Assembly (NCBI RefSeq): GCF_000172155.1
Contig: NZ_ABIZ01000001.1
Span: 2,885,105-2,949,104 of the forward strand
Origin: Verrucomicrobium spinosum DSM 4136 = JCM 18804
GTDB taxonomy: Bacteria > Verrucomicrobiota > Verrucomicrobiia > Verrucomicrobiales > Verrucomicrobiaceae
Direction of reading: 5' to 3'
DNA: 64,000 nucleotides
Position numbers and translations under genes: made by a program. Position 1 is the stretch's first letter. Each line of letters opens with the position of its first letter. Below are positions 16,332 through 63,754 of the stretch, piece after piece. The notes under the pieces are model-generated. The model did no database searches. It worked only from the letters and a program-made list of their open reading frames with translations, and was not told the origin of the DNA.

Positions 16332-16856
16332 TTATTCCTCGCCCCGGTAATAGTCGTCGTCTTCACCCCGCACCATGCGGCGCTCCGGGGATCGGACCAG
16401 CCATTTGTTGCTGTCCGGATAGTGGCACGATTCGCCGATCGGATTGTCCGCCACCACGTAGATCAGGAGGTCGGTATCTCCATTGTTGATGAGTTGGTGA
16501 GGCTCACCCGGCTTGAAGACAAAGGCATCGCCCGATTCAACGGGCTCGATCCCTGCCTCGTGACGTACGGTGCCGACGCCGGAGATCACGTGGTAAAATT
16601 CCCACTGGGCACTGTGAGAATGATAGGGGTACGGTGTGGCTCCAGGCGGAATGCGCAGGATCTCCACATCGAATGGGTGCCGAGTGAGTAGATCTGTGGA
16701 CTGGGCATCCCGTCCCAGGGCGATGGAAAGTGATTTGCTGGAGCCGAGGAACCGGCCTTTGGGAGCGGAGGAATGGCGCGTGGAATACGACGCCCGTAGT
16801 GAACGATCATTGCTCCGAGGAAGGGTGCGAGCCGCAGTTGCGCCAGACCGCCACAA
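16332..16856 (-). CDS. Cupin domain protein
   Basis: A single cupin domain occupies the C-terminal two thirds of this protein. Motif 1 is PYPYHSHSAQWEFYHVISG with the His-X-His and Glu metal ligands; motif 2 is GDAFVFKPGEPHQLIN with the third His. Such small cupins bind a metal and act as isomerases, dioxygenases or sugar epimerases; the substrate cannot be read here. The longest frame starts with TTG and the first 40 residues look non-homologous, so the true start is probably internal and is not resolved. It is convergent with oxyR. Confidence 0.8.
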   Translation of the reverse strand: MWRSGATAARTLPRSNDRSLRASYSTRHSSAPKGRFLGSSKSLSIALGRDAQSTDLLTRHPFDVEILRIPPGATPYPYHSHSAQWEFYHVISGVGTVRHEAGIEPVESGDAFVFKPGEPHQLINNGDTDLLIYVVADNPIGESCHYPDSNKWLVRSPERRMVRGEDDDYYRGEE

Positions 16857-17026
16857 CTCCTTCGAGGTAGTCTCTCATCTCACCCATACCCAACGTAGCA
16901 TCGCTCAAGGCTCGTCAAAGTTGGGCTTGTAGCAGTATCCTCTTCAAGGAAGAGCTTCGCCTGATGTGAAGGGGGGACGCTGAAAGGCAATCTGACGATC
17001 AAGCCCCCATGGACTTTCAACACGTG

Positions 17027-17213
17027 ATCCCGACTTGTCGGGATTTTGGGAGTGCGGCGAGAATCGCCGCTTTGGGGAGTCCTGTGTAGGTGGAAATGCC
17101 GGATGAAGGGAGCGGAGGATGTGGGCTTCGGTGGGGAACGAAGGGTTCAAGTAAATCACAAGGCCCGGCGAAGGCGGTGATTCTCACCGCAGTCCCAAAA
17201 GCGCTGCGCGCTC
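17027..17213. repeat. Palindromic repeat element, copy A
   Basis: A core of about 157 bp (17044-17200) is bounded by inverted arms. The left arm is TTTGGGAGTGCGGCGAGAAT followed by CGCCGC; the right arm is GCGGTGATTCTCACCGC followed by AGTCCCAAAA. Outside each arm sits a short hairpin: ATCCCGACTTGTCGGGAT at 17027-17044, and AGCGCTGCGCGCT after the right arm. The same architecture occurs at 63169-63355 with the arms and the word GGAGTCCTGTGT conserved but different outer hairpins. No protein is encoded. Confidence 0.8.
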
Positions 17214-17266
17214 AGGCGGAGGAGGCGGTGAGGGGGCTTGGGGCCTTTGATCGGCTTGCGATGCTT

Positions 17267-17449
17267 GAGGGCTGAAAGCCCGGCCTCATAGGAGCCTTGG
17301 GCAACGCCCAAGGTTGGCGTTGGTTTAAGATGTTGAGGGCTGTAGGCCCGGGGTTATTCAGGGATGCTCTTCGTGGGCAGGCTCGATGAGGCCTGGCCTT
17401 CAGCCCTCTATGAATATTGAGATGCACACCTTGGGCGTTGCCCAAGGCT
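17267..17449. repeat. Second palindromic element with nested arms
   Basis: Two nested inverted pairs are present. 17267-17289 against 17386-17408 (GAGGGCTGAA...GGCCTCAT) has 21 of 23 positions paired. 17293-17314 against 17428-17449 is a perfect 22-bp pair built on CCTTGGGCAACGCCCAAGG, which is itself a palindrome. It fills the spacer after the repeat at 17027 and before the end of ureD. No coding potential was seen. Confidence 0.78.
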
Positions 17450-17508
17450 GTGATGATGCCGGACCTTTGGTCCTTCTGAGGCAGAGCTTCTGCATTGGCA
17501 GCCTCCTC

Positions 17509-20235: not shown

Positions 20236-21957
20236 TTAGAACAGGAAATAACGCTGGGCCATCGGGAGGACGGCGGCAGGTTCGCAGCGGAGTTCCCGAC
20301 CGTCGGCCTTCACGGTGTAAGTCTCGGGATCCACTTCGATCTTGGGCAGGGCGTCGTTCCACAGCATGTTCGTTTTGCCGATGTTGCGGCAGTTCTTCAC
20401 GGCGCTGAGCATCTTGTTCAGGCCGAGCTTCTGGACGTTGCCGTGGGCGAGGGAGGCCTCGCTGACGAAGGTAATGTTCGTCTTGTACTTGGCGCGACCG
20501 TGAGCGGCGAACTGGGGCCGGTAGAACATGGGCTGCGGAGTGGGGATGGAGGCATTGGGATCGCCCATGTTGGCCATGGCAATCATGCCGCCCTTCAGCA
20601 CCACTTCAGGCTTCACGCCAAAGAACATCGGCTTCCACACCACGAGGTCGGCGAGCTTGCCCACCTCAATAGAACCCACCTCATGGGAGAGGCCATGGGC
20701 GATGGCGGGGTTGATCGTGTACTTGGCCACATAGCGCATGGCCCGGAAGTTGTCCGCTGCGCCGTGGGCGGGGCCGTCCAGCTTGCCAAACTGGGTCTTC
20801 ATCTTGTGTGCCGTCTGCCAGGTGCGGGTGATGACCTCACCGAGGCGGCCCATGGCCTGGCTGTCGCTGGACATCATGGAAATGGCACCCAGATCATGCA
20901 GCAGATCTTCTGCGGCGATGGTCTCCGGCCGGATGCGAGATTCGGCAAAAGCGACGTCCTCCGGAATGCGGGAATCCAGGTGGTGGCACACCATGAGCAT
21001 GTCCAGATGCTCGTCGATGGTGTTGACAGTAAAGGGGCGAGTCGGATTGGTGGAGGAGGGGAGGACATTGGCTTCTCCGCACACACGAATGATGTCCGGA
21101 GCGTGGCCACCGCCAGCGCCCTCTGAGTGAAAGGTGTGGATGGTGCGGCCCTTGAAGGCATTGAGTGTGCTTTCAACGAACCCGGCTTCATTCAGAGTGT
21201 CCGTATGGATGGCCACCTGCACGTCCAGTTCCTCCGCGACACCCAGGCAGGTGTCGATGGCGGCGGGGGTGGTGCCCCAGTCTTCATGCAGTTTCAGACC
21301 TACGGCACCCGCCAGCACCTGTTCCCGGAGGGGCGGTGCGGTGGAGCAGTTCCCCTTGCCCAAGAACCCAAGGTTCATGGGGTACTCATCGGCCGCCTCC
21401 AGCATGCGCTGCATGTACCAGATGCCGGGAGTGCACGTGGTGGCATAGGTGCCGTGGGCCGGACCGGTGCCACCGCCGATCATGGTGGTGATGCCGCTGG
21501 CCAGAGCGTGGTCAATCTGCTGCGGGCAGATGAAATGAATGTGGGTGTCGATGCCGCCAGCGGTGATAATGCAACCCTCGCCAGCAATGACTTCCGTGCC
21601 CGCGCCGATCACCATGTCGATGCCGTCCTGGAGCAGGGGGTTCCCGGCGTGACCAATGCCGACGATGCGGCCATGCTTCACACCGATGTCCGCTTTGATG
21701 ACGCCCTGCACGGCATCGATGATCAAGGCGTTGGTGATGACGAGGTCGAGACTGTCGGCATCCAGCGCCAGGGAGGACTGGGCCATGCCATCGCGGATCA
21801 CTTTGCCGCCGCCAAATTTCACCTCGTTCCCGTAGCCGCCTTTTTCAGCGATGAGGTCGCGCTCGACCTGCACAAAGAGCTCGGTGTCGGCCAGGCGCAC
21901 CTGGTCACCCGTAGTGGCACCGAACATGCTGGCGTGTTGTTTGCGAGTGATCTTCAT
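20236..21957 (-). CDS. ureC: Urease subunit alpha
   Basis: UreC is the catalytic subunit of the dinickel enzyme that hydrolyses urea to ammonia and carbamate. The 573-aa length is standard. All active-site parts are visible: [11 protein letters not shown] (two His ligands), the carbamylated lysine in GLKLHEDWG (Lys222), [16 protein letters not shown] (His ligands), the mobile-flap cysteine in MVCHHLD (Cys324) and the Asp ligand in [11 protein letters not shown]. The ATG overlaps the ureB stop by 4 bp. The enzyme should be active if nickel and the accessory proteins are supplied, and both are encoded in this cluster. Confidence 0.98.
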
Positions 21958-63063: not shown

Positions 63064-63168
63064 GGCGGTTCGGTGCGTCAGTGCGTCGGTTGGGGGTTCG
63101 AGGTATCTTGAGCCTCCAGCGTGATGCTGGCCTGCAGTGGGTCCTTCTTCGGGGGGGGAGCAACACCT

Positions 63169-63355
63169 GGATGCGGAGCATCTTTGGGACTGCGGCGAGA
63201 ATCGCCGCTTTTGGGAGTCCTGTGTGGGGCAAGTAGCCTGTGTGTGCAGCGGAGTTCGTGAGTTTTTGCGGGGACCAACAGGTAGGAGTACCTCATAAGG
63301 CCCTGCCAAAGCGGTGATTCTCACCGCAGTCCCAAAATCCTGCTTCGCAGGATCA
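63169..63355. repeat. Palindromic repeat element, copy B
   Basis: The core 63183-63337 begins TTTGGGACTGCGGCGAGAAT and ends GCGGTGATTCTCACCGC plus AGTCCCAAAA, the same arms as copy A at 17044-17200, with the word GGAGTCCTGTGT shared just inside the left arm. The outer hairpins differ: GATGCGGAGCATC at 63169-63181 and TCCTGCTTCGCAGGA after the right arm. It lies in the 690-bp gap between ppc and the EamA gene, in which I see no gene. Confidence 0.8.
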
Positions 63356-63754
63356 GGTGGTGGATGCAGTGGGTAGTTGGGTGTGTGTTCGGCTTCCCGT
63401 GTCGTGGGGTGGGGGGCTGAACCGCTGGAAGCCGGTGGCACTTTTCATTTCACTTGCACTCCGCCTCTTCAGCCGTATCCAGTGGCCAGTTTATCTCCTT
63501 AATGTCTCTCCTCGTCACACGCCCTAAATGGCAACACCTCTGGCTTTGGCTGCTCAAGCCAAAGGGCGCGGTGATCGAGTGACGCGCTGGATGATTGAAA
63601 CGCAAGCCCTTAAGTGGCGCGATTTTCCCGGATCCAGCAGCAGGCTAGGTGCCTGCCAGGCTTCTCTCTTCACTACCCGCCCGACGCTCCCAGCCTCGGG
63701 CGTTTATGTTTCCATGCCTCGGTTTCGCTTTGCCTTCCCTTGTCCCCCTGACCC

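Follow-up and report, generated by a model that had tools for sequence, protein, structure and literature searches.

REPIN-like dimers with occasionally replaced end hairpins next to a RAYT gene in Verrucomicrobium spinosum

A stretch of 64,000 nucleotides from Verrucomicrobium spinosum DSM 4136 (contig NZ_ABIZ01000001.1, positions 2,885,105 to 2,949,104), hereafter the window, contains two palindromic elements, each built of two inverted arms around a spacer. Every arm carries an outer hairpin (hp1), a linker and an inner hairpin (hp2), and further copies of the element flank a gene for a REP-associated tyrosine transposase (RAYT; REP, repetitive extragenic palindromic sequence) outside the window. 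Most descriptions of REP/RAYT systems come from Proteobacteria and concern REPs with a GT(A/G)G head. Here, we present a genome-wide and comparative analysis of these elements, which are probably dimers of the REPIN type (REP doublets forming hairpins) that are most likely mobilised in trans by the flanking RAYT, and whose hp1 types are occasionally replaced as a whole.

Architecture and genomic placement of the elements

Both window elements follow one plan, in which a CACCTG tag, hp1, the linker TTTGGGA(C/G)T, hp2 (consensus in the window copies GCGGYGA-GAA-TCRCCGC) and a spacer are followed by the mirrored arm (Table 1). The TTTGGGA...TCCCAAA cores extend from 17045 to 17199 in element 1 and from 63183 to 63336 in element 2, and the length from tag to tag is 198 bp and 196 bp, respectively. 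An earlier note, made from the letters of the window, had described conserved inverted arms with differing outer hairpins on both sides of both copies. This is what we see, and the four hp1 sequences, all different, pair perfectly. The limits given there were right to about one base but omitted the constant outer tag CACCTG. Folding as single-stranded DNA gave z-scores of -4.9 and -7.8 for the two elements, and none of 200 shuffles reached either value.

The same note had spoken of a two-copy element, which is true within the window only. In the genome searched (G000; 8,220,857 bases, one contig), BLAST with element 1 returned 64 matches, and the arm pattern with up to three mismatches returned 42, against none for the reversed pattern. 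A covariance model, with the best 146 first-look candidates scored, recognised at least 89 arms (E<=0.001), a moderate figure compared with classical REPs, which number in the hundreds. At E<=0.5 there were 100 matches in 50 stretches, 97 of which entered the arm analyses described below. The covariance model also found 111 and 132 arms in two congeneric draft genomes, G001 and G003 (the 132 in G003), as well as 85 and 24 arms in two genomes from a different genus in the same family.

Table 1. Coordinates of the two window elements and their parts (window positions; linker, hairpin and tag sequences as read on the forward strand)
Feature	Position	Strand	Remark
Element 1, dimer of two inverted arms, tag to tag	17021..17218		orthologous in two congeneric genomes
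Element 1 left outer tag CACGTG (family consensus CACCTG)	17021..17026	+	
Element 1 left hp1 ATCCCGAC-TT-GTCGGGAT	17027..17044	+	identical in G001
Element 1 left linker TTTGGGAGT	17045..17053	+	contains GGAG head of RAYT-linked REP
Element 1 left hp2 GCGGCGA-GAA-TCGCCGC	17054..17070	+	
Element 1 right hp2 GCGGTGA-TTC-TCACCGC	17174..17190	-	
Element 1 right linker AGTCCCAAA	17191..17199	-	reverse complement of TTTGGGACT
Element 1 right hp1 AGCGC-TGC-GCGCT (GCA loop on the arm's own strand)	17200..17212	-	identical in G001 and G003
Element 1 right outer tag CAGGCG (consensus CAGGTG)	17213..17218	-	
Element 2, dimer, tag to tag	63164..63359		orthologous in two congeneric genomes
Element 2 left outer tag CACCTG	63164..63169	+	intact
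Element 2 left hp1 GATGC-GGA-GCATC	63170..63182	+	
Element 2 left linker TTTGGGACT	63183..63191	+	
Element 2 left hp2 GCGGCGA-GAA-TCGCCGC	63192..63208	+	
Element 2 right hp2 GCGGTGA-TTC-TCACCGC	63311..63327	-	
Element 2 right linker AGTCCCAAA	63328..63336	-	
Element 2 right hp1 ATCCTGC-TTC-GCAGGAT	63337..63353	-	
Element 2 right outer tag CAGGTG	63354..63359	-	intact

Among the 97 arms there are 28 convergent pairs, with arm starts mostly 192-241 bp apart, a near-constant spacing as in REPINs. Placement was assessed with a crude caller of open reading frames (ORFs) based on length and GC3. Arm groups lie outside the called ORFs (>=120 aa) in 55 of 58 cases and inside in three. The 52 groups flanked by ORFs comprise 29 between convergent, 23 between tandem and none between divergent ORFs, and the convergent share is far above that of element-free ORF pairs (17/126; Fisher p 2.4e-8).

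A further conserved palindrome, close to GCCTCCGAYATCGGAGGC, is located 33-50 nt outside many tags (e.g. at L140, between 3362 and 3434); divergent arm pairs share a single GCCTCCGAYATCGGAGGC-like palindrome at the pair midpoint. In addition, a sister arm family that has GGAGTGCGTGCGGCTCGACGCCGCTTT and lacks the CACCTG tag is present at L125, L143, L152 and L154 (e.g. L154, 4596-4648) and at about 12 more places.

Outer hairpins and their fate at orthologous sites

Covariation counts were set aside as biased because the alignment had been selected for perfect 13-nt hairpins, and pairing of hp1 was instead examined in 50 arms selected by linker and hp2 alone, including a few spurious pattern matches. 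Directly upstream, 43 of them have a perfectly matched stem (>=5 bp); the same holds for 1/50 in a control stretch lying 70 nt farther outward and for 1.4% of shuffles. Across copies, the outer hairpins vary and stay paired, as the note had anticipated. The stems fall into the types GATGC, GCGGC, AGCGC, GCGAC, ATCCTGC, ATCCCGC and relatives of ATCCCGC. A codon-like pattern beyond the tag had raised the idea of a coding origin of the flanks, which was dropped because the differing stem lengths break any reading frame. The loop is GNA in 77 of the 91 readable hp1 hairpins of the genome. DNA mini-hairpins with a GNA or GNNA loop and a closing G-C pair are described as unusually stable (PMC4686876), and the loops seen here point to single-stranded DNA as the acting form.

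No dimer with both ends typed carries the same type twice (0/20 against 3.7 expected; P 0.016 by shuffling, with copies that are not independent), and one of eight divergent arm pairs does. A heterotypic rule for dimer ends is statistically weak; a preference for heterodimers is known from several families of GTAG- and CGTC-tagged REPs (Di Nocera et al. 2013, PMC3733652), which resemble the present elements in this respect.

To follow the fate of hp1, 40 arm-bearing stretches were taken from G003 and 32 from G001. These yielded 60 orthologous arm pairs, 34 with G003 and 26 with G001, which are not independent in that several G000 arms were counted against both. The right arm of L110, L114, L115, L117, the second arm of L120, L121, L136, L137, L142 and extra tandem arms had been excluded for unclear position or flanks. 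The hp1 type was kept in 53 pairs, some with single changes, while five pairs show whole-hairpin replacements and two are chimeric. In 13 of the 60 pairs, at least one of the two 60-nt flanks had less than 50% identity or too little sequence; the other 47, with better flanks, comprise all five swaps and 42 unchanged pairs. All five replaced hairpins are fully paired, and all lie within single BLAST alignments of 81-91% identity.

The cleanest swap, at L145/L315 (GCGAC to GATGC), has similar neighbourhoods on both sides and a stem altered on both strands. The others are GTCCCGC to GCGAC in the first tandem copy of L146/L320 (GTCCCGC-TT to GCGAC-GAA, with altered stem length), GCGAC to GCCCCGC at L151/L327, GCGAC to AGCGC in the right arm of L109/L294, where hp2 is altered too, and GCGAC to ACGGC in the left arm of L150/L301. 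Flanks are weaker at L109 and L150, with 57 to 62% on the poorer side. The chimeric hp1s consist of the 5' half of one type and a whole TCCCGA-N4-TCGGGA hairpin; they occur at L151 (3888), L156 (2501) and L328 (4501), two of these three sites being in the pair count. Wherever they could be read, the hp1 types of the two window elements are conserved in both congeneric species; the G003 comparison did not recover the left arm of element 1. With five swaps and two chimeras in 60 pairs, the hairpins are exchangeable, but rarely so: the end hairpins are heritable types that seldom change.

The RAYT gene and the repeats of its relatives

The earlier note had found no RAYT in the window, and neither a PF01797 search nor a search with the RAYT protein gave a match there. 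The Y1-type gene flanked by the same arms that it had proposed to look for lies about 10 kb to the left. It is an ORF of 194 aa (P0001; genome positions 2874766-2875347) located between two full dimers (2874427-2874649 and 2875395-2875612), both of which have the same pair of end types. The protein scores 77.6 bits against the NCBIfam family NF047646 (REP-associated tyrosine transposase; E 8.8e-22), and its sole PDB match of note is TnpA_REP (4er8, E 2e-4). All 75 in-frame relatives, among which the RAYT itself is counted, have Y143 and both histidines of the HUH motif, H73-Y-H75, and Y74 is present in 99%; by its position, Y143 is the predicted catalytic tyrosine. Another copy (7194653-7195198), which shares 62% identity and contains a TAG stop, is likewise situated between two dimers.

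The PF01797 (Y1_Tnp) search missed this gene. Many of its 39 genome matches belong to a multi-copy Y1 group flanked by terminal inverted repeats (TIRs), which was dropped as a candidate because its ends lack the arms. The units of this group are about 1.37 kb long, encode 351-391 aa and have the ends AGACAGGCTATTAC and GTATAGCCTGTCT (e.g. L054, L060, L064). Unstructured TIRs at the transposase, the TIRtron feature, are found in this group and not at the P0001 locus.

A scan of 84,980 genomes provided 161 relatives of the RAYT, of which the best 80, mostly from Verrucomicrobiota, were used. Within 450 bp of the gene, TTTGGAGTGCGG (up to three mismatches) followed by a hairpin and a T-rich end occurs at 67 of 80 loci, and on both sides at 56. 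The density of linker plus hairpin is 3.1 per kb within 450 bp, compared with 0.09 per kb beyond 1 kb, and five rearranged control motifs gave 0 or 1 match. The hp2 sequence varies from species to species. A GNA/GNNA mini-hairpin (stem >=3) stands directly before the linker in 84 of 205 repeats, at 34 of 80 loci, against 5/205 further upstream and 1% of shuffles, in a test devised after the repeat sequences had been inspected. A scan for (C/T)A(C/T)CTG plus hairpin in the flanks of the PF01797 loci and of the first relatives gave nothing of use; species do not share the CACCTG tag. Judged by these sequences, the repeat of the clade is (TTT)GGA(G/C)T plus hp2, often with a mini-hairpin in front. 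As neither a longer stem nor the tag is shared between species, the long, typed hp1 and its tag have developed in this genus and its near relatives.

Among 38 related genomes, 13 have at least one match to the covariance model and 19 have a RAYT. Congeneric genomes differ in the presence of elements and, at orthologous sites, in the number of dimers or arms (one arm versus four at L138/L291, two versus four at L150/L301), and the RAYT unit occupies different loci in different species. At the L127 locus, where the source genome has a single dimer, two contig ends of G001 join, and each bears a dimer together with a partial RAYT gene. Such differences may have arisen by insertion as well as by recombination between dimers that led to loss. 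The pairs L155/L308 and L129/L358 were considered as empty sites and rejected, both being rearranged.

Interpretation and related systems

In the reading that we favour, each copy would be a non-autonomous dimer in which a spacer separates two inverted arms of REP type. The RAYT, a putative Y1 HUH transposase, would most likely act on it in trans, mobilising it in the form of folded single-stranded DNA. The hp1 mini-hairpin, usually with a GNA loop, would have grown in this genus into several interchangeable stem types framed by CACCTG. A type would normally be inherited with its locus and occasionally be replaced whole by that of another element, most likely through ectopic recombination, gene conversion or template switching between elements. 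By analogy, the element would work like a REPIN or a bacterial interspersed mosaic element (BIME) moved by a RAYT. The earlier proposal of a REPIN-type mobile element with a modular end finds support in the copies, the paired and varying hp1 and the flanking RAYT; it has to be qualified in that the head is not GT(A/G)G, swaps are rare and mobility is what we infer from the comparisons.

Several observations weigh against this reading. In place of the GT(A/G)G head typical of REPs, GGA(G/C)T stands before hp2, and CCTG precedes hp1; since the typical head is the sole tested feature that is clearly lacking, we regard the system as a variant of the REP/REPIN-RAYT kind. A Pfam search assigned the RAYT protein to no family, and its NF047646 score falls just below the curated cut-off of 80. 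A stem of at least 4 bp before the linker is not a rule across species (28/210 compared with 25/210 in a control stretch). The distributions of arms and RAYT coincide only loosely: eight of the 38 genomes have both, 11 a RAYT only, five model matches only and 14 neither. Repeats that differ in sequence may be present in the 11 genomes with a RAYT only. Among the five is G003, a draft of about 210 contigs, which showed no RAYT at the cut-off used and has 132 arms. The L129 locus holds a RAYT unit in the source genome and 0.4 kb of other sequence in G003. Finally, no clean empty site or target duplication was found among the congeneric comparisons, and where G003 is without an element the stretch is otherwise rearranged.

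The placement data invite a host function, in which the arms would be two-way terminators or mRNA 3'-end hairpins, spread by duplication and kept by selection without being mobile. Apart from the excess between convergent ORFs and the absence between divergent ones, this would suit a G+C-rich hp2 followed by TTT and the retention of both window elements in two congeneric genomes. Mobile repeats likewise survive best between convergent genes, however, and the T runs are short; the RAYT between dimers, its link to the repeats across species and the differing dimer numbers at orthologous sites also argue against such a role, which we consider improbable. Even less credit can be given to the idea that the elements are miniature inverted-repeat transposable elements moved by a different transposase, for instance that of the TIR-flanked Y1 group, with the RAYT adjacent by chance. 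This group accounts for many of the PF01797 matches, and arms are found near two of its copies (L086, L088), but it has ends of its own; the cross-species link is to the P0001 clade, and in this genome dimers flank both P0001-type copies on both sides. This alternative appears highly improbable.

As to the swaps, stepwise compensatory mutation at each site could mimic an exchange, and single mismatches within hp1 do occur (e.g. L118/L312, L119/L298, L131/L277). The replacements, in contrast, alter two to seven pairs together and produce a type that is already frequent at other genomic sites, with neighbouring bases unchanged and at L146/L320 a different stem length, which makes this explanation very unlikely. 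Somewhat less remote, though still unlikely, is that hp1 acts as a cassette, with the RAYT, or replication stalled at the arms, cutting on both sides and another element's hairpin being joined in. TnpA_REP of E. coli is described as cutting at CT beside the REP (PMC8266576), and CT is present in CACCTG and at most hp1/linker joints, which would permit enzyme-driven swapping without demonstrating that the RAYT does it. At L145 and L146, the change extends slightly into the linker, so that recombination fits better. If hp1 were a cassette, one transposase clade would carry an exchangeable recognition tip, swapping would keep the ends of a dimer unlike and spare the dimer the instability of a perfect long palindrome, and chimeric hp1s would be by-products.

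As REPIN-like dimers, the elements can be compared with several known systems. They share with the REPINs of Pseudomonas fluorescens SBW25 (Bertels and Rainey 2011, PMC3116915) the inverted REP-type arms, the spacer, the hairpin formed by single-stranded DNA, many extragenic copies, a RAYT beside copies, and singlets and clusters besides doublets. They differ in having two hairpins per arm, another head and, in all typed dimers, hp1s of different types; excision is reported for the SBW25 REPINs and was not seen for the elements here. With the BIMEs and TnpA_REP of E. coli (PMC6006769, PMC8266576) they have in common mosaic pairs of REP subtypes (there Y with Z1/Z2), the REPtron layout and a HUH-Y1 enzyme, whereas the E. 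coli REPs carry GTAG and a bulged single hairpin instead of GGA(G/C)T, a straight hp2 and a mini-hairpin with GNA loop. Quentin et al. (2018, PMC6006769) describe atypical structures that lack GTAG beside TnpA_REP genes of classes 2.6 and 3. In the same work, subclass 2.8 is reported to have GT(A/G)G REPs and class 3 a CnGA foot, unlike the elements here. REPs also occur in the verrucomicrobium Opitutus terrae (PMC3733652); those of that survey carry GTAG or CGTC tags, and its passages considered here do not mention orthologous whole-hairpin replacement. On REPs of this genus, nothing was found in the open-licence literature, a scope outside which most subscription papers lie.

Our results describe a RAYT clade, mainly in Verrucomicrobiota, whose repeats have another head and a second small hairpin of the GNA/GNNA loop type. 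Whole-hairpin replacements at orthologous sites make the modularity of REP ends a countable event between sister species, and the swapped arms offer ready substrates for asking whether the RAYT reads the head, hp1 or hp2.

Apart from the elements, an Rfam search of the window gave nothing but the 5' ureB sRNA (RF02514, 110 bits), which lies elsewhere, at 21507-21795 in the urease region. A repeat of about 120 bp (window ~16840-16965) has many listed matches in G001 and few in the source genome. Another, of about 215 bp, adjoins element 1 (window ~17266-17480) and is present at about 40 further places in the genome. It is absent from the orthologous G001 site, where the flanks join within a couple of bases, so that this repeat has a cleaner empty site than the REPIN-like element.
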